This document shows positions 34,780 through 42,664 of a stretch of DNA of 64,000 nt, in pieces. A model generated the notes under the pieces. The model did no database searches, had not been told where the DNA came from, and saw only the letters and a list, made by a program, of their open reading frames with translations. The translations under genes were made by a program, and so were the position numbers. Positions within the stretch are counted from its first letter, which is position 1; each line of letters begins with the position of its first letter. Origin of the DNA: Tomitella biformata AHU 1821 (GTDB lineage: Bacteria; Actinomycetota; Actinomycetes; Mycobacteriales; Mycobacteriaceae); assembly GCF_000524475.1 (NCBI RefSeq), contig NZ_BAVQ01000023.1, positions 187,962 to 251,961 on the forward strand, given 5' to 3'.

Positions 34780-35058
34780 ATGAACATGCCAGCCGCCGAT
34801 TCCACCCCGGAACAGCCCGCCGACATCGAGGCGCTGCGCCTGGAGATCGACCGGCTCGACTCCGAGATCCTTGCCGCCATCAAGCGCCGTAGCGAGGTCT
34901 CCCAGGAGATCGGCCGCACCCGGATGGCCACGGGCGGCACTCGCCTGGTGCACAACCGCGAGATGGCCGTCATCGAGCGCTTCAGCGATTTGGGACAGGA
35001 AGGCAAGACCCTCGCCCTTCTGCTGCTGCGGCTGGGCCGTGGCAGACTCGGGCACTGA
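34780..35058 (+). CDS. chorismate mutase, AroQ class
   Basis: 92 residues. A single AroQ helical bundle: EIDRLDSEILAAIKRRSEVSQEIG with catalytic Arg/Lys, MATGGTRLVHNREMAVIERF and a C-terminal LLLLRLGRGRLGH, nearly identical in layout to the intracellular mutase Rv0948c, whose C-terminal LGRGRLGH docks on DAHP synthase. It converts chorismate to prephenate for Phe and Tyr. A TAGAAA hexamer six bases before the ATG could be a -10 of a leaderless transcript. It lies 46 bp before the first array gene. Confidence 0.95.
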   Translation: MNMPAADSTPEQPADIEALRLEIDRLDSEILAAIKRRSEVSQEIGRTRMATGGTRLVHNREMAVIERFSDLGQEGKTLALLLLRLGRGRLGH

Positions 35059-35104: not shown

Positions 35105-35614
35105 ATGCCCTCCACACCACGCCTGAACCTCGCCCGAGCCGCCACCGCTGCCCTCGCGACGCTCACCCTCGGCGGCGCGTTGATCTCCTGCTCCTCCACC
35201 ACCGAGGACCCACCCCCCGCGGCCCCCGTCGACTCCGCACACGGTGCCATCGCACCCTCGACGGCGGCCGGCGCGCCCCTCGACCCCGCCGAGTATCCCG
35301 CCGATGCGGCTGATGCCGCGGCGATCACCACGCTGATCGACCAGTACTTCACCACCACCAACGCACAGGATGCCGACGGGTTCCGGGCGATCCTCTGCGC
35401 CGCGGCGCAGCCCGAGTTTGCGGACATCGAGAATGCCGGCCCGGTCTCTGACCCGATGCAGCTCGAGGAGCTCGCCGACATCGCCGTCGACGCCGACACC
35501 GCCACCGCGAACCTCACACTCACCATGGGCCAGAGCGCGAATAGCCCCTCTGAGACGGTGCCGTTCAAGTTCACCCGTGAGAACGGCGAATGGAAGGTGT
35601 GCGGCAGCCCCTAA
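35105..35614 (+). CDS. array protein 1: lipoprotein with C-terminal WKxC domain
   Basis: 169 residues. Signal peptide with lipobox LISC (Cys near 29). After a Pro/Ala linker the conserved domain begins ITTLIDQYFTTTNAQDADGF, carries the mid Cys (ILCAAAQPEF), a beta strand IAVDADTATANLTLTM and ends FKFTRENGEWKVCGSP. The fold resembles small NTF2-like/DUF4878 mycobacterial lipoproteins, by inference only. This is the most diverged copy (REN-GEW for NED-GW). Expected site is the outer face of the plasma membrane. Start chosen for the signal peptide; an AAGGA lies about ten bases upstream. Confidence 0.82.
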   Translation: MPSTPRLNLARAATAALATLTLGGALISCSSTTEDPPPAAPVDSAHGAIAPSTAAGAPLDPAEYPADAADAAAITTLIDQYFTTTNAQDADGFRAILCAAAQPEFADIENAGPVSDPMQLEELADIAVDADTATANLTLTMGQSANSPSETVPFKFTRENGEWKVCGSP

Positions 35615-35653
35615 TCGGCGGGCCCACACCATCGGACTACTGCAAGGACGGCT

Positions 35654-36130
35654 ATGAACTCGATCCTCGCCCGCGCCGCCATGGGAGCAGTGGCGACCGC
35701 GGCCCTCGCTGGCACACTGCTCTCTTGCTCGTCGGCCACCGAAGCGCCCGAGGCTGCCCCCGTCAGCGCGGAGACCACCGCCGCCCAGGCTCCGGGTCCG
35801 ACCGAACCCGCCTCCACCGCGGACGAGGCCGCCATGTCGGAGGTCTTCCAGCGCTATCTTGAGACATCCAACGCGGGCCAGGCGCAGGCGTACCTCGCGA
35901 CGGTCTGCGCCAGCGACCCCGTGCATTCCCAGGGCATCACCGACAGCGAGCCCAACCCGTATCCCATGAGCCTGGTGGGAATGAAGGACTTCACCGTCGA
36001 CGGGGACGACGGTCTCGCGACCGTGACTGTGAAGATCGGCCTGGAAGAGTCCGCCGACAACATCACCCAGCGATTCACCTTCGTGCGTGCGAACGGCGCG
36101 TGGACCGTGTGCGGCGAGCAGGGGAAATAA
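35654..36130 (+). CDS. array protein 2: lipoprotein with C-terminal WTxC domain
   Basis: 158 residues from ATG 35654 after AAGGA. Lipobox LLSC (near residue 25), Ala/Pro/Thr linker, then the domain (MSEVFQRYLETSNAGQAQAYLATVCAS) with its mid Cys and a C-terminal RFTFVRANGAWTVCGEQGK. Unlike most copies it has RANGAW for NEDGW and a short charged tail after the last Cys. The two Cys probably form a disulfide outside the membrane. Gap to copy 1 is 39 bp and to copy 3 is 19 bp, consistent with one transcript. Confidence 0.82.
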   Translation: MNSILARAAMGAVATAALAGTLLSCSSATEAPEAAPVSAETTAAQAPGPTEPASTADEAAMSEVFQRYLETSNAGQAQAYLATVCASDPVHSQGITDSEPNPYPMSLVGMKDFTVDGDDGLATVTVKIGLEESADNITQRFTFVRANGAWTVCGEQGK

Positions 36131-36149
36131 ATCCGGCAATGGAGGATCA

Positions 36150-36641
36150 GTGACCGAGCACCACGAAAAGCCTGACAGCCCCAACACGACCAAAGCGCTC
36201 TTGATCGGCCTTGCCCCCGCCCTCCTGGTCGTGGTGCTCCTCGTCGTCGGCGGACTGCTCTACACCGCGCCCGCGCCCGACTCCCCCGCCACCGCGACGC
36301 CTGCCGTCGCGCAAGCCGAGGGCTCCGCGGCAGCAGGGTCAACGACGGACGCGGCCGAGATCACCGCGGTGATGCAGCGGTATTCGGACGGCATGAACGC
36401 AGGCGACGCCGCACTATTCAAGTCCGCACTGTGCGAGAGCAGCCAGGCCCTCACCGCCGACTTGGCCGACCAACCCCCGCTCGAGAGTGGCCGGGGCAAG
36501 CTCGAGTCGGTCTCCGACGTCCAGGTGTCGGGCAACACCGCCACCGCGCTTATCACCGCGACGGTGGAGGACGCCCCGGACCTAGGCTCGAAATCGACGC
36601 AACTTAATTTCGTCAACGAGGACGGCTGGAAGCTCTGCTGA
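36150..36641 (+). CDS. array protein 3: membrane-anchored WKxC-domain protein
   Basis: 163 residues from GTG 36150, close behind GGAGG. Instead of a lipobox it has a short charged N-terminus (TEHHEKPDSPN) and one uncleaved-type membrane helix (about 16-40). The extracytoplasmic domain runs ITAVMQRYSDGMNAGDAALFKSALCES to LNFVNEDGWKLC, ending exactly at the conserved Cys. It shares the dual-Cys pattern of the array. Confidence 0.82.
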   Translation: MTEHHEKPDSPNTTKALLIGLAPALLVVVLLVVGGLLYTAPAPDSPATATPAVAQAEGSAAAGSTTDAAEITAVMQRYSDGMNAGDAALFKSALCESSQALTADLADQPPLESGRGKLESVSDVQVSGNTATALITATVEDAPDLGSKSTQLNFVNEDGWKLC

Positions 36642-36708
36642 TCCGATCCCCGGATCGGCGGCAGGTAACCTGGGCTGTCGTCCACCACCGCACCCCTGAG
36701 GAGCTCCG

Positions 36709-37215
36709 ATGAGCCCGTCCGACCCGAGCGGCACCGCGGAGATCCCCAATCCGGTCCCCGCCGATGCCGAGTTCCCGGAGCCAGCGCTTCCGCGCCGGCC
36801 GCTGAACTGGATCCTCGTCGCCGCGGCCGTCGTCGTACTGGCTCTGATCGCGGCCCTCGGCGTCGCGACTTGGCTCAACATCCGGGAGGCGCCCGCCTCC
36901 GCAGACGAGGACCAGATCACGAACGTCATCACGGACTTCATCGACTACACCAATCAGGGCCAGAACGCGAAGGCGCAAGAGTTGGTCTGCTCGGGCATGA
37001 CCGTCATGCAGAGCCTGACCGACAGCCCCGCAACTTCCAACCCCACCGACATCGTCCGGATCACCGGCATCTCGGTGGACGGTGACCGCGCGACCGCGAT
37101 CGTCACCACAAGCAGCAGGTCGACGCTCAGCTCCGACGCCGGCCAGGAAAGTCAGAACACCCTGACAATGGACTTCCGCAATCAGGGCGGTTGGAAGGTG
37201 TGTACCCCGCAGTGA
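36709..37215 (+). CDS. array protein 4: membrane-anchored WKxC-domain protein
   Basis: 168 residues from ATG 36709, five bases after GAGGAG. Acidic Pro-rich cytoplasmic segment (1-30), one membrane helix (about 33-56), then the domain ITNVITDFIDYTNQGQNAKAQELVCSG with the mid Cys and a C-terminal MDFRNQGGWKVCTPQ. Its stop overlaps the GTG of the next copy (GTGA), so copies 4 and 5 are translationally coupled. Confidence 0.82.
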   Translation: MSPSDPSGTAEIPNPVPADAEFPEPALPRRPLNWILVAAAVVVLALIAALGVATWLNIREAPASADEDQITNVITDFIDYTNQGQNAKAQELVCSGMTVMQSLTDSPATSNPTDIVRITGISVDGDRATAIVTTSSRSTLSSDAGQESQNTLTMDFRNQGGWKVCTPQ

Positions 37216-37721
37216 ACGTGCCCCAAGATTTCGGCCCCGAGCCGGACCTCGATGATTTCCTGGCGCCCGACGAGCCCCGCAAGTCCCGACGGCTGATGAT
37301 CAGCGTCGTCGCCGCCTTGACCGTGTTGGCCATGGTGGCTGTCGCGGTCACCTCAGTTCTCGTGTGGGCCGGCGACGACGCGCCCGCCGCAGGCGCCCAG
37401 GAACCCGCGGCGCAGGCCTCGAACCCCCAGATCACCGACGCCGCCAACCAGTATGTGGCGGCGGTCAATGAAGGCATCGCCGCCGACTACCTCGGCTCCA
37501 TCTGCTCACCGCTGCGCACTCAGCTCGGCGACATCACCGACACCACGCCGGCCGACCCCAAGATGGCGGTCCTGGAGGTCACAGATGTGACTATCCGGGG
37601 CGAGATCGCCACTGCCAACGTGGCCATCGCCCCGGCCGACGTGCCCGACGCGACGCCGCGAACGGACAAGCTTCGGTTTCTCAACGAGGACGGCTGGAAG
37701 TTCTGCGGGCAGGCCCAATAG
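37212..37721 (+). CDS. array protein 5: membrane-anchored WKxC-domain protein
   Basis: 169 residues from GTG 37212, overlapping the previous stop by four bases. Acidic N-terminus (FGPEPDLDDFLAPDEPRKSRR), one membrane helix (about 27-50), Ala/Gln linker, domain ITDAANQYVAAVNEGIAADYLGSICSP with the mid Cys, and a C-terminal LRFLNEDGWKFCGQAQ. A 126-bp gap follows, the largest in the array, where a new transcript may start. Confidence 0.82.
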   Translation: MNVPQDFGPEPDLDDFLAPDEPRKSRRLMISVVAALTVLAMVAVAVTSVLVWAGDDAPAAGAQEPAAQASNPQITDAANQYVAAVNEGIAADYLGSICSPLRTQLGDITDTTPADPKMAVLEVTDVTIRGEIATANVAIAPADVPDATPRTDKLRFLNEDGWKFCGQAQ

Positions 37722-37847
37722 TCGAGTGTGGCCAGCAACGTCGGTGCCGCGCAAATAGTGTCGATCGATTTCTGACGGGTGTCCAATCATTCTGTAGTGT
37801 TCACGTGTTGACGGCACTTCGCCGAACGACAAACTTTAGGAGAGTTG

Positions 37848-38507
37848 ATGAGTCCGACTGATAAGGGTGCAAACACGCCGGAGTCACCCAAGACGCCGGA
37901 GCCGAATGGGGAATCGATCCCAGACGAAACCACCCCCGTCGAGCCCGTCAGCGAATCGTCCGAGATCTCCCTCGCGAAGTCCTCCGGCGCGGAGGACGCC
38001 ACCGCTGAAGTCCCCACCGCTGAGGCCCCCGTCGCAGACGCTCCCATCGGCGACGCGTCCTACCCCGCACCGGAGGACTTCGCCTCGTCCACCGCCGCAT
38101 CCGGCCGCAGCAAGAAGCTCCTGGCGATCATCGCGGGCGTCTCCGTGATCATCATCGCGGCTATCGCCGTCCTCCTGGTCGTGATGCTGAACAAGGATGA
38201 CAGCTCCTCGGACCGCGAGGCCCAGGTCAACCAGATCATCGAGACGTTCATCGAGGTGCAGAACACTGGCGAGGTCACCAAGGCCGCGGGGATCTTGTGC
38301 CAGGAGAACCTGGCCGAGTTCGGCGAGTTGAAGGATGGCGAGCCTGCGGCGGTCCAAATCAATCTCGATTCGGTCGACGGCCTCACCTTCTACCCGGTGT
38401 CCGCCTCCGCGACGCTCACGATTTCCGCCAAGGATGACCCGAGCCAGCCAGCCCAGCAGGTCCCCGTGCGGTTCTTGAACGAGGACGGCTGGAAGATCTG
38501 CAGCTAG
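37848..38507 (+). CDS. array protein 6: membrane-anchored WKxC-domain protein with long acidic N-terminus
   Basis: 219 residues from ATG 37848, four bases after AGGAGAG. It is the longest copy: an 85-residue Pro/Glu/Ser/Ala-rich cytoplasmic region (MSPTDKGANTPESPKTPEP...), a membrane helix at about 90-110, then VNQIIETFIEVQNTGEVTKAAGILCQE and a C-terminal VRFLNEDGWKICS. The extended acidic N-terminus could be a docking or phosphorylation segment facing the cytoplasm; that is inference. A TTGACG at 37808-37813 is a possible -35 in the preceding gap. Confidence 0.82.
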   Translation: MSPTDKGANTPESPKTPEPNGESIPDETTPVEPVSESSEISLAKSSGAEDATAEVPTAEAPVADAPIGDASYPAPEDFASSTAASGRSKKLLAIIAGVSVIIIAAIAVLLVVMLNKDDSSSDREAQVNQIIETFIEVQNTGEVTKAAGILCQENLAEFGELKDGEPAAVQINLDSVDGLTFYPVSASATLTISAKDDPSQPAQQVPVRFLNEDGWKICS

Positions 38508-38571
38508 TAGTCGCCCCGTCGACCACTGGAACGCCCACTCACTCAGCTTGACACTCACTTGAGGAGCCCTC

Positions 38572-39009
38572 GTGCGCGCTAGCCCGTTCGCAGCCCCGTC
38601 AATCCCTTCCAGGGCAAAGACCTTCGCGGCCGCCAGCGCTCTCGCTCTGGGCGCTGTTCTGCTCGCGTCGTGCTCTTCCTCCGCGTCGGACGCCCCCGAC
38701 GTGACGCCCGGGGACCAGATCACGCAGGTCACCCAGAAATTCATGGATGCCACCAATAGCGGCAAGGTCTCCGCGGCGTCGGAGTTCCTCTGCAAGTCGA
38801 CGGTGGATGCTCTGGGCCCCGACTTGACGGATGAGCCGGCACCCGAGGCGCAGATGCAGCTCGACAAGGTCGCGGACATCAAGATCGACGGCGACACGGC
38901 GACCGCGCAGGTCACCGTCTCCATGGCCGGAGATGGCGCTAGTGACGCCAAGCCTCAGGAGAGCACCATGAAGTACGTGAACGAGGACGGCTGGAAGGCC
39001 TGCCAGTAG
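38572..39009 (+). CDS. array protein 7: lipoprotein with C-terminal WKxC domain
   Basis: 145 residues from GTG 38572 after GAGGAG. Signal peptide with lipobox LASC (near 35), short Ser/Ala/Asp linker, domain ITQVTQKFMDATNSGKVSAASEFLCKS, strand IKIDGDTATAQVTVSM and a C-terminal MKYVNEDGWKACQ. One of the tight core copies (7, 8 and 9) that share NEDGWK and the final CQ. Confidence 0.83.
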   Translation: MRASPFAAPSIPSRAKTFAAASALALGAVLLASCSSSASDAPDVTPGDQITQVTQKFMDATNSGKVSAASEFLCKSTVDALGPDLTDEPAPEAQMQLDKVADIKIDGDTATAQVTVSMAGDGASDAKPQESTMKYVNEDGWKACQ

Positions 39010-39035
39010 TGCTCTCGACTCACAGCACCTAGATC

Positions 39036-39068
39036 ACACGCCAGCAGTGCATCGCACTGCTGGCGTGT
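39036..39068. terminator. 14-bp perfect hairpin inside the array
   Basis: ACACGCCAGCAGTG (39036-39049) pairs perfectly with CACTGCTGGCGTGT (39055-39068) around CATCG. It lies between array genes 7 and 8 without a T run, so it may terminate, attenuate or protect transcript ends. Confidence 0.65.
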
Positions 39069-39108
39069 GTGTCCCACCGGCAAGCACCAGGAATACCCGA
39101 GGAGTCCT

Positions 39109-39522
39109 ATGCGCCACCGCCCCCACGCCGCCACGGTGAAGACCACCGGAGCGACGCTCGCACTGGCGCTGGCTGCGGTTCTGTTGACGTCCTGCTCTGC
39201 GGCGGACGGATCGGGCTCAGACTCCGCAGAGGGACAGATCAAGCAGGTGACCCAGGACTACATCACGGCAGTCAACATGGGCAGGATGACCGAGGTGTCG
39301 ACCCTGATCTGCAGCCGCCTAGCCAGCACTGTCCAAGGCGGTGGCGAGGACCTGCCGGAGTCGGCGAAGAAGGCACAGATCAACAGCTTCGACGCGATCA
39401 CGGTCAACGGGGACTCGGCCACCGCGCACGTCACCGTGTCCGTGATCGACGATGCCGCCACTCCCGCGCAATCGGTAGAGATGCTTTTCGTCAACGAAGA
39501 CGGCTGGAAGCTGTGCCAATAG
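39109..39522 (+). CDS. array protein 8: lipoprotein with C-terminal WKxC domain
   Basis: 137 residues from ATG 39109, after GAGGAG; an upstream in-frame start at 39067 would fall within the hairpin. Signal peptide with lipobox LTSC (near 29), the domain IKQVTQDYITAVNMGRMTEVSTLICSR with the mid Cys, the strand ITVNGDSATAHVTVSV and a C-terminal MLFVNEDGWKLCQ. It closely resembles copies 7 and 9 in sequence and in linker length. Confidence 0.83.
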   Translation: MRHRPHAATVKTTGATLALALAAVLLTSCSAADGSGSDSAEGQIKQVTQDYITAVNMGRMTEVSTLICSRLASTVQGGGEDLPESAKKAQINSFDAITVNGDSATAHVTVSVIDDAATPAQSVEMLFVNEDGWKLCQ

Positions 39523-39550
39523 CGAGCCAGCCCAACACTAAGGAGATCGA

Positions 39551-40012
39551 ATGACGAACAACCTGACGTCCTTCCGCAAGGGCGCCACCATCGCGGTCGC
39601 GATTGTCGCCGGCACGCTGCTCGCGTCCTGCTCCTCGAGCAGCGACGGCGGTGAAGCGAATGCCGTCAGCACTGGCAATTCCGTCGTCGCTGGCGATTCC
39701 GCTGCCGATGGCGATTCCGCCGCCGCGATCACCCAGACGACCAACGACTACCTGACCGCAGTGAACTCGGGCAAGCTCGACGCGATCCGCGCGGTCTCCT
39801 GCAAGCAGGTCGTGGACGCGATCCCCGCGGACACCACGGACGGATCACCGCTTGCCCAGCAGATCGTGGTCGACTCCGTCGATAACATCGTGGTCGACGG
39901 CGACACCGCCACCGCCGACGTGACCGCCTCCCTCAAGGACACGCCCGACGTGGAGTCGCAGACAGAGTCCCTCAAGTTCGTCAACGAGGACGGCTGGAAG
40001 ATCTGCCAGTGA
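39551..40012 (+). CDS. array protein 9: lipoprotein with C-terminal WKxC domain
   Basis: 153 residues from ATG 39551 after AAGGAG. Signal peptide with lipobox LASC (near 27). The linker contains short internal repeats (VVAGDSAADGDSAA). The domain has ITQTTNDYLTAVNSGKLDAIRAVSCKQ with the mid Cys, IVVDGDTATADVTASL and LKFVNEDGWKICQ. Its TGA overlaps the GTG of copy 10 by four bases. Confidence 0.83.
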   Translation: MTNNLTSFRKGATIAVAIVAGTLLASCSSSSDGGEANAVSTGNSVVAGDSAADGDSAAAITQTTNDYLTAVNSGKLDAIRAVSCKQVVDAIPADTTDGSPLAQQIVVDSVDNIVVDGDTATADVTASLKDTPDVESQTESLKFVNEDGWKICQ

Positions 40013-40428
40013 CGCCCCGCTCCCCCAAGTTTTGGTCCGTGACGTCGTTGGTGGCCGCGGTGCTGGTGATCATCGCGGCAGTGGCGGTCACGGTGGTGCT
40101 CACCTCCGAGGACGATGCCCCGGACACTGATAGCGCACAGATCATCGCCGCCACGCAGGCGTTCTACGAGGCGAACGCCGCGGGCGACCTGCCCGCTCTC
40201 ACCCAGGTGACGTGCGCTCGGACTATGGCGACCTTCCCCGGCTTTCCCGAGGATCGGGCGCGCACAGAGTTGCGCGGCGTAGCCGAGATCGTGGTCTCGG
40301 GCGACACGGCGACGGGCTCGGTCTTGGCCGTCGACCCGGCGAGGCCAGAGCTCGACTCGGCGCTGATGCCGATGATCTACGTGAATGCGGACGGGTGGAA
40401 GCTGTGCCCGCCAACCAGCGAGGAGTGA
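40009..40428 (+). CDS. array protein 10: membrane-anchored WKxC-domain protein
   Basis: 139 residues from GTG 40009, coupled to copy 9 by a GTGA overlap. Short basic N-terminus (TPRSPKFW), membrane helix at about 9-31, then the domain IIAATQAFYEANAAGDLPALTQVTCARTM and a C-terminal MIYVNADGWKLCPPTSEE (NAD for NED). The mid and final Cys are kept. It lacks a lipobox. Confidence 0.82.
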   Translation: MTPRSPKFWSVTSLVAAVLVIIAAVAVTVVLTSEDDAPDTDSAQIIAATQAFYEANAAGDLPALTQVTCARTMATFPGFPEDRARTELRGVAEIVVSGDTATGSVLAVDPARPELDSALMPMIYVNADGWKLCPPTSEE

Positions 40429-40430
40429 TC

Positions 40431-40916
40431 ATGAATATCAGGCATCGAGCCACCGCGGTCGGCAAGACCGTGGCCGCCCTCGCGATCATCGGCGCCGTCG
40501 CCGCGTCGTGCTCCTCGAGCAGCAATGACGCGGCAGCCGCGAGCACCACAGAGGAGTCCTCGGCGAGCGCCACGGCCGACGTCCCGTCATCGGGGGCGCC
40601 AGCAAGCCCCGAGGACCAGGCCGAGATTGTCGCGATCACCAAGACCTATGTCACCGGACTCAACAACGGCGACGCCAAGATGCTCGAGCACGCGATGTGC
40701 CAGGCGACGTTGGCCAAGTACACCGATCTCAGCGTCAACGCGCGTCCCAGCGCCACACCGCAGCAGGTCAACACGATCACAGACGTCACGGTGGCCGGGG
40801 ATCTCGGCTTCGGGACCGTCGAGTACTCGCTGGTCAACGATCCGTCGGCATCTGTCAGCACCGTTCCGCTGGCGTATAAGAACGAGGGCGGCTGGAAGGT
40901 CTGCGACGAGCCCTAA
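40431..40916 (+). CDS. array protein 11: lipoprotein with C-terminal WKxC domain
   Basis: 161 residues from ATG 40431, two bases after the previous stop, with AGGAG inside the end of copy 10. Lipobox AASC (near 27, first position Ala is tolerated but not ideal), Ser/Ala/Thr-rich linker, domain [27 protein letters not shown] with the mid Cys, and a C-terminal [15 protein letters not shown]. Last member; pgi follows after 53-60 bp on the same strand. Confidence 0.82.
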
Positions 40917-40969: not shown

Positions 40970-42664
40970 ATGGGAATGGACCACACCGCAGCTCGCGCCG
41001 ACATCACGGACAGCGACGCCTGGCACGCCCTGCAGGCGCATTTCGACCGGATCGCGCCGACGCACCTGCGTGAGATGTTCGCCGCCGATCCGGAGCGCGG
41101 CTCGGAGATGACGATCGAGGCCGCGGACCTGCACTTCGATTACAGCAAGCAACGGGTCGACGCCGAGACCATCGCGCTGCTGGTGGATCTGGCGCGGGCC
41201 GCGGGCGTCGAGGAACGCCGCGACGCCATGCTGGCCGGCGAGCACATCAACACCAGCGAGGACCGCGCCGTCCTGCACACCGCGCTGCGCCTGCCCGCCG
41301 ACGCGACGCTCACTGTCGACGGCGCGGACGTCGTGGCCGAGGTGCACCAGGTCCTCGCGGATATGGGCGCGTTCACCGACCGCCTCCGCTCGGGCGAGTG
41401 GGTGGGAGCGACGGGCAAGAAGATCGAGGCCGTCGTCAACGTCGGCATCGGCGGCTCCGACCTCGGCCCGGTGATGGCTTACCGGGCGCTGCGCAGCCAC
41501 ACCGACCAGGTGCATGTGCGGTTCATCTCCAACGCGGACCCGTCCGACGCCATCGCGCAGTTGGCGGGCCTGGACCCAGAGACGACGCTCATCGTGGTGG
41601 TCTCGAAAACCTTTGTCACCGTGGAGACTTTGACGAATGCGACCGTCGCGCGCCGCTGGCTGCTCGACGGCCTCGGCCTAGCCCCCGCGGCCGGAGAGGA
41701 CCTCTCCCCCGCCGCCCGGGATGCCGTCGCCAAGCACTTCGTGGCGGTCTCCACCGCGGCGGACCGAGTGCGCGAGTTCGGCATCGACCCGGTGAACATG
41801 TTCGGCTTCTGGGACTGGGTCGGCGGACGCTACTCGGTGGACTCGGCGGTGGGCCTGGCCCTGATGGCCGCCATCGGCAAGGAGGCCTTCGGAGAGTTCC
41901 TGGCGGGCTTCCACGCCATGGACCACCACTTCACGACGGCGCCGCTAGAACACAACGCGCCGGTGATCTCCGGGTTGCTGGGTGTCTGGTACTCGAACTT
42001 CTTCGGCGCAGAATCACGGGCCGTGCTGCCATATGCCAACGACCTCAAGCGTTTTCCCGCATATCTGCAGCAGCTGACGATGGAGTCCAACGGCAAGTCG
42101 GTGCGCTCCGACGGCGCCCCCGTCAGCACCAAAACCGGCCAGATTTACTGGGGCGAGCCCGGCACCAACGGCCAGCACGCCTTTTACCAGTTGCTGCACC
42201 AGGGCACGCGCATCGTCCCCGCTGACTTCATCGGCTTCGCCCACCCCAATGAGGACCTGGCGACGATAGACGGCGGCAGCATGCACGATCTGCTGATGTC
42301 GAACTTCTTCGCCCAGTCCAAGGTGCTCGCGTTCGGCAAGACGGCCGACGAGATCCGTGCCGAGGGCACCCCCGAGCACATTGTGCCGCACAAGGTGATG
42401 CCCGGGAACCGGCCATCGACCACGATCCTCGCCCCGCGACTCACCCCGTCGGTGCTCGGTCAGCTGATCGCCTTCTATGAGCACTCGGTGTTCGTCGAGG
42501 GCACCATCTGGGGCATCGACTCCTATGACCAGTGGGGCGTGGAGCTCGGCAAGACCCAGGCGATCGAGCTCATGCCGGCACTCACCTCCGAGCAGGAGCC
42601 CGAGGGCCTGGGCGACTCCTCCACCGACGAGCTCGTGCGCCGCTACCGGGCCCAACGGAAATAG
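40970..42664 (+). CDS. pgi: glucose-6-phosphate isomerase
   Basis: 564 residues. Motifs [37 protein letters not shown] and the C-terminal MESNGKSV and QWGVELGK regions are diagnostic of PGI, with the catalytic Glu and His in the usual places. It interconverts glucose-6-P and fructose-6-P. There is no good ribosome site; a TAATGT at 40963-40968 seven bases before the second ATG (40976) suggests a leaderless start two codons later. It converges on the Fpg/Nei gene with three bases between stops. Confidence 0.96.

Follow-up and report, generated by a model that had tools for sequence, protein, structure and literature searches.

Why should a bacterium keep eleven related exported proteins in one row between the genes of chorismate mutase (CM) and phosphoglucose isomerase (pgi)? 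The question is raised by a stretch of 64,000 nucleotides from Tomitella biformata AHU 1821 (contig NZ_BAVQ01000023.1), below called the window, in which eleven open reading frames (ORFs), designated here g1 to g11, occupy positions 35105-40916 of the plus strand. Our favored answer, to which we assign a probability of about 0.45, is that the array may be a set of anchored extracytoplasmic domains that bind ligands and have diversified. The family, the anchoring signals, the cysteine pair, the place, the copy numbers and the purifying selection on the orthologs in sister species are established, and the evidence for each of them is given below.

Eleven exported proteins with one domain

The products of the array genes are 137-219 residues long and have in common one domain of about 100 residues, in which a mid-domain cysteine and a terminal W-x-x-C are present in all 11 proteins and the two cysteines lie 64-71 residues apart. 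Besides the start methionine, only the two cysteines, one tryptophan and one glycine are invariant in the alignment of the 11 proteins (alignment A1), with N, G, and K residues being near-invariant. When each protein was left out in turn, the profile of the other ten found it with E-values from 2e-34 to 7e-20; none of the 200 shuffles per protein was reported in the same search (threshold E 1000, HMMER filters on). A lipobox-like motif is present in six proteins (g1, g2, g7, g8, g9, and g11), and each of the other five has a single strong hydrophobic segment (Kyte-Doolittle mean of 2.8-3.2 over 19 residues). The original prediction, made from the letters and the ORFs, of eleven tandem exported paralogs sharing W-x-x-C, six of them with lipoboxes and five with single membrane anchors, is confirmed.

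Profile searches assigned all eleven proteins to one named family and not to unrelated ones. All 11 are matched by the NCBIfam model NF051431 (Rv0361_Cterm, Rv0361 family membrane protein; hmmscan, E ≤ 1), and ten of them pass its curated cut-off of 37 bits in a six-frame search, g2 scoring 34.7 bits. Weaker matches were obtained with NF053528 (MTB12/CFP-2; eight proteins at E ≤ 1, best 4.2e-6) and with the corynebacterial WKL lipoprotein family (five proteins). As to the single anchor ahead of the domain that is expected of an NF051431 membrane protein, five of the array proteins have a helix anchor and six a lipobox. The Rv0361 family shares with the array the ectodomain and the anchoring in the membrane, but several long relatives have one anchor and a long low-complexity tail, whereas here six of 11 members are lipoproteins and all of them stand in one array. 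The secreted MTB12/CFP-2 family (PDB 8z9b) is another of the closest known systems, differing in the weaker match; to our knowledge, it is not encoded in an array. The domain is already known by name and common in the taxonomic family; what is unusual is the copy number, the place and the near-confinement to one locus.

The features of the locus are as follows (all on the plus strand, positions of the window).

34780..35058, chorismate mutase (CM_2), upstream flank (Pfam PF01817, E 7.8e-11)
35105..35614, g1, lipoprotein, lipobox LISC, Rv0361-type domain (from ORF, alignment and profiles)
35654..36130, g2, lipoprotein, lipobox LLSC; the only copy under the NF051431 cut-off
36150..36641, g3, single membrane anchor
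36709..37215, g4, single membrane anchor
37212..37721, g5, single membrane anchor; start uncertain, 37212 or 37218
37848..38507, g6, single membrane anchor following a low-complexity N-terminal tail of about 90 residues (tail read from the translation)
38572..39009, g7, lipoprotein, lipobox LASC; domain 46% identical to that of g9
39020..39085, hairpin between g7 and g8, terminator-like, without a T run (-35.8 kcal/mol, z -6.33)
39109..39522, g8, lipoprotein, lipobox LTSC
39551..40012, g9, lipoprotein, lipobox LASC
40009..40428, g10, single membrane anchor; start overlapping the g9 stop by 4 bases
40431..40916, g11, lipoprotein, lipobox AASC; partner of the final array gene in the genus-mate G004
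40970..42664, phosphoglucose isomerase (pgi), downstream flank (Pfam PF00342, E 1.5e-197)

A predicted fold without conserved catalytic residues

For a broader comparison, an alignment was made of 50 domains, taken from the array, from its four genus-mates and from other genera; it comprises the 60 rows of the larger tree described below less ten, of which five were near-duplicates and the others truncated or weak. Both cysteines and the tryptophan are invariant in all 50 domains, and only one further column (Ala) is conserved above 90%. Searched against PDB, the profile of these 50 rows found 14 sequences at E ≤ 1, the sole significant match being a designed cortisol-binding protein (E 8.7e-5), which we take to be an NTF2-fold design. 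The other 13 (E 0.06-0.93) include five CaMKII association domains, a ketosteroid isomerase and a de novo NTF2 protein, the rest being entries named NTF2-like, cystatin-like or uncharacterized. In another PDB search, MTB12/CFP-2 (8z9b) gave a weak match, with an E-value of 0.79. The weak Pfam matches of the 50 domains are led by Lumazine_bd_2 (23 domains), DUF4440 (15), DUF4878 (11), and SnoaL_4 (9), and the SnoaL, DUF4440, DUF4878 and Lumazine_bd_2 types presumably belong to one clan. As to DUF4878 (PF12870), its 11 matches were obtained at E ≤ 0.1 (best 2.6e-4), and it is not among the 14 Pfam families matched by the 11 array proteins at E ≤ 1. Taken with NF051431, these matches argue for the kinship with NTF2-like proteins that had been supposed earlier.

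No conserved acid, histidine or tyrosine was found in the 50 aligned domains. Since the superfamily includes enzymes, and weak matches to SnoaL and ketosteroid isomerase were obtained, one might think of SnoaL/ketosteroid-isomerase-type enzymes kept in several substrate versions; however, with two cysteines and one tryptophan as the only invariant residues, such enzymes are improbable in the extreme, and we reject this explanation because conserved catalytic residues are lacking. The earlier statement that no enzyme motif is visible is borne out by the same alignment. Overall, the sequence profiles suggest that the domain adopts an NTF2-like fold in which catalytic residues are not conserved.

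The same domain as the outer part of kinases and Hsp70-like proteins

The company that the domain keeps in relatives is one of the grounds for our reading. Among 16 long frames from other genera, which were chosen for their length and make no census, the domain is C-terminal throughout, and it is preceded by a Pkinase domain in three (all from one genus, g15 in our genus list), by Hsp70 in four and by no Pfam family in nine. In those frames whose sequence was read, a hydrophobic stretch lies between the kinase or Hsp70 part and the domain; of the nine frames without a Pfam family five were read, and three of them have a long low-complexity tail ahead of the hydrophobic stretch. In the kinase-bearing genus, stand-alone copies adjoin a kinase in three of three loci examined (loci chosen for clustered matches), and one of these loci (L097:353-4856) contains four stand-alone copies and then a Ser/Thr kinase with the same ectodomain. 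The combination of an Hsp70-like domain with the ectodomain in one frame (L084, L085, L086, and L087) is an unusual membrane Hsp70 architecture; in L043, which is the same gene as L086, the hydrophobic stretch again separates the two parts. The kinase and Hsp70 architectures therefore place the domain outside the membrane, in a sensing position. Among the PADLOC models, one of PD-T4-6 is matched by two of the 11 array proteins (best E 2.5e-4), another of PD-T4-6 by one copy (0.0039) and REase_II by one (0.024); PD-T4-6 is presumably a kinase, and its matches may reflect the link between kinase and ectodomain.

For the NTF2-like families DUF3828, DUF3887 and DUF4878, extracellular non-catalytic ligand binding was proposed, with kinase fusions, in the available text of PMC3924330. 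Export by a lipobox or a single anchor, kinase fusions and the proposed mode of action are what these families have in common with the array; they differ in that the Pfam matches obtained here are only weak, and no comparable array appears in the portion of PMC3924330 that was examined. It is because of the sensing position in relatives and of this published argument that we favor anchored binding modules. Rv0361 itself, which according to PMC2891697 was found in membrane fractions as well as at the surface of M. tuberculosis, also speaks for this reading.

In our reading, the locus is a genus-specific tandem expansion of one Rv0361-type NTF2-like domain, held outside the membrane through either a lipid or a single helix. 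Every copy is most likely a non-catalytic binding module in the form of a cone made of a helix and a curved sheet, stapled by a predicted disulfide between the mid-domain cysteine and the terminal W-x-x-C, and a pocket or a face of this cone would bind a ligand of the cell envelope or of the surroundings. Duplication and divergence may have produced copies that differ in their binding faces and in how far they stand from the membrane, with some division of labor between them; we infer that each copy could have a ligand of its own. In relatives, the domain as the outer part of Ser/Thr kinases or Hsp70-like proteins presumably reports its ligand to the cytoplasm, while the stand-alone copies of T. 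biformata would serve to bind ligands, to present or buffer them, or to connect partners in the envelope.

A trait of the genus

In the genome of T. biformata, the A1 profile finds nothing beyond the 11 array copies at E 1e-4. Two weaker A1 matches were rejected after their translations had been read, one of them looking like a small isomerase-type protein and the other like noise. Two additional matches of NF051431, below its cut-off (3.3e-5 and 1.2e-4), were not accepted either, as their translations look like a penicillin-binding protein and a Mce-associated-type protein.

The interval between CM and pgi holds 3, 3, 3, 6, and 11 members in the five genomes of the genus. Three genus-mates (99% complete) have three copies each and none elsewhere with A1 or NF051431; the fourth, fragmented and 81% complete, has nine copies, six of them in the interval, and 12 when NF051431 is used at E 1e-3. 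In other genera the stretch upstream of pgi was taken from 39 genomes of 30 genera and searched with the A1 profile (E 1e-3, frames of at least 80 residues). A family frame was found upstream of pgi in none of the 39, and no member lies in the CM-pgi interval of the 31 genomes (27 genera) where both flanks were seen, one of these having CM and pgi 7.7 kb apart; in the other eight CM was not seen and the interval could not be judged. In nine of 11 such slots of other genera that were inspected by eye, the place is taken by an opposite-strand gene resembling aldehyde dehydrogenase (e.g., L045:2543-4048).

The domain itself is widespread, with 262 of 301 sampled genomes of the taxonomic family giving a match at 1e-5. 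Five or more copies were counted in 11 genomes, and T. biformata has the highest number (at most 13 candidates scored per genome). When all candidates were scored, a genome of another genus (G018) also reached 11 matches, although a pair of them may belong to a single gene; the matches are distributed over four contigs, five of them being clustered. The array is a trait of the genus, and the local expansion noted in the original prediction is supported. An origin from phages or plasmids was discarded, as the one copy tried, g9, matched none of the 50,697 phage and 72,556 plasmid records; PHROG gave two rows, with one member each, at E-values of 0.0021 and 0.0087.

Ancestry of the array and selection on its members

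Two trees, one of 26 rows restricted to the genus and one of 60 rows, were used to trace the history of the array; both rest on few columns and contain long branches. In either tree, g11 is paired with the gene that closes the G004 array (97/94 in the 26-row tree and 100/87 in the 60-row tree, both starred), so that the pgi end of the array is, judging from the trees, shared with G004. The CM end is perhaps shared as well: in the 26-row tree, g1, g2 and the gene that opens the G004 array form one group (88/79, not starred), which is not seen in the 60-row tree, where g1 is not resolved. The last-but-one gene of G004 pairs with g10 in the 26-row tree (81/75, with a long-branch warning) and falls instead with a sequence of another genus in the 60-row tree (94/62). 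The array thus probably grew internally, between its shared ends. A single clade for the 11 genes is not rejected in the 60-row tree (approximately unbiased (AU) test, p 0.19) and is rejected in the 26-row tree (p 0.012); therefore, some of the duplications probably predate the split from G004. A single clade of all 26 array members of the genus is not rejected (p 0.47, 60-row tree). The three-gene arrays of the sister species G001-G003 are orthologous by position, forming three starred clades in the 60-row tree, the middle one of which is not resolved in the 26-row tree.

The ratio of nonsynonymous to synonymous substitution rates (dN/dS) for the array orthologs of G001-G003 is 0.16-0.38 (nine comparisons) versus 0.04-0.09 for CM and pgi (six comparisons). 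The rows of uvrD and of the Fpg-like gene, with frame slips in two of three pairs each, were excluded from this comparison; the one usable pair gave 0.06 for uvrD and 0.48, above the array genes, for the Fpg-like gene. The orthologs in sister species are under purifying selection and evolve faster than CM and pgi.

These data are to be considered first of all in the light of the strongest rival explanation, drift of a generic envelope protein. According to it, an envelope gene placed between CM and pgi in the ancestor of the genus was duplicated in tandem, and the copies drift by neutral or dosage-driven birth and death, sharing a generic role (envelope packing, a scaffold or simply an abundant exported protein), the number eleven having no special meaning. 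The variation of the copy number in the same place, the faster evolution of the array compared to CM and pgi, the low identity between the domains of the paralogs (median 28%, with g7, g8, and g9 among the closest at 35-46%) and the scarcity of supported ortholog pairs beyond the pgi end all agree with this. On the other hand, all eleven frames are intact and have retained both cysteines and an export anchor, and the order of the three-gene array is kept in three sister species with dN/dS well under 1. We regard birth and death as a serious though doubtful explanation.

The same data disfavor antigenic variation, which the earlier prediction had listed among the possible functions. A system for varying surface antigens or adhesins would be in line with the export of the proteins, their surface-type anchors and the differences in copy number between species; besides, Rv0361 of M. 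tuberculosis was reported at the cell surface (PMC2891697). But long near-identical repeats on which recombination could act were not found in the array, where only four short, low-scoring tandem repeats occur; the paralogs are far from identical; and the orthologs of the G001-G003 trio, a comparison outside which the eleven genes themselves stand, lack gene-wide positive selection. Such a system is very unlikely here.

Surroundings of the array and the immunity question

The immediate neighbors of the array block are uvrD, CM, pgi and the Fpg-like gene. The genome also contains another pgi-like gene (G000:C104:52166-53776), which has 55% identity to the pgi gene flanking the array. Within the block the spacing ranges from a 4-base overlap to 126 bases, and the GC content at third codon positions is 0.84-0.88 in all 11 genes. 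In the tail of g6, there is an inverted repeat of 19 bases (95%; 37974-38083 of the window), its arms being 72 bases apart. None of 200 shuffles was as stable as the hairpin between g7 and g8, which may terminate or process the transcript; because of this very stable structure, a single transcript for the array is not to be assumed. Scans for promoters and for terminators with a T run provided nothing useful (two promoter-like sites, both on the minus strand, and no terminators), and Rfam and PADLOC scans yielded no system.

The layout brings to mind the tandem lipoprotein arrays of Staphylococcus aureus, Lpl/DUF576 (TilA), whose number is also variable; this is an analogy of layout and not of family (PMC10730906 and PMC4470592, as far as their available text goes). 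By this analogy, the array could be an orphan immunity repertoire of membrane-displayed proteins, each of which would neutralize a toxin secreted by competing or related bacteria, in the way that TilA acts against TslA. Its grounds are indirect: the S. aureus clusters resemble the array in being tandem, lipid-anchored and variable in number and sequence (PMC10730906, same portion), and immunity families with an NTF2 fold exist (PMC3482391, likewise in part). In contrast to S. aureus, no toxin partner was seen here, the anchors are a mixture of lipid and helix, and the location is a housekeeping one. No toxin was recognized in 15 flanking frames (23.9-49.8 kb), which are mostly housekeeping genes, one frame (119 residues) having no match and one belonging to a DUF. 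An LXG match was absent from the whole genome, other toxin classes not having been searched.

No immunity family appeared in Pfam for the 11 proteins at E ≤ 1; among the Pfam matches of the 11 (E ≤ 1) and the 25 of 28 rows listed for the 50 domains, none is named DUF576 or Lpl, and none Imm-NTF2 or Imm-NTF2-2, models that Pfam presumably contains. The stability of the three-gene arrays over three species and the joining of the domain to kinases and Hsp70 in relatives also speak against immunity. A toxin-immunity repertoire is thus possible but improbable.

In a somewhat less improbable, still unlikely variant, the array could be a detached receptor repertoire, for which a sensor ectodomain was, in this genus, uncoupled from its kinase or Hsp70 partners, settled at one locus and was multiplied, its copies having distinct ligands or toxins to neutralize. 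It would then be a counterpart, in the mycobacterial lineage, of the staphylococcal tandem lipoprotein repertoires.

What the array may mean

Of the roles named in the original prediction (recognition in the envelope, adhesion, immunity, antigenic diversity), the best interpretation is still that some ligand is recognized, the other three roles not being borne out. Several points weigh against anchored ligand-binding modules. A peptide of M. tuberculosis Rv0361 reads WKIT (PMC2891697, in the part available) at the place of WKxC, so that the namesake has not retained both cysteines as a pair. No signaling or transport gene was recognized among the 15 flanking frames scanned. Some NTF2-like domains, such as that of CaMKII, only oligomerize, and binding need not involve a small ligand. 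Searches of the open-licence literature brought up neither a ligand nor a partner nor a phenotype for any member, and a very similar pattern would result if the array had expanded by drift.

The same open-licence literature yielded neither a described role for the Rv0361-type domain nor a paper on such an array. Exported domains of this type are widespread in the taxonomic family, their namesake being reported as a surface protein of M. tuberculosis. T. biformata has its copies together in a block that can be deleted as a whole, and no convincing copy lies outside it, which makes their function directly testable by one knock-out, and the fusions with kinases and Hsp70 in relatives provide a handle on what the domain reports.

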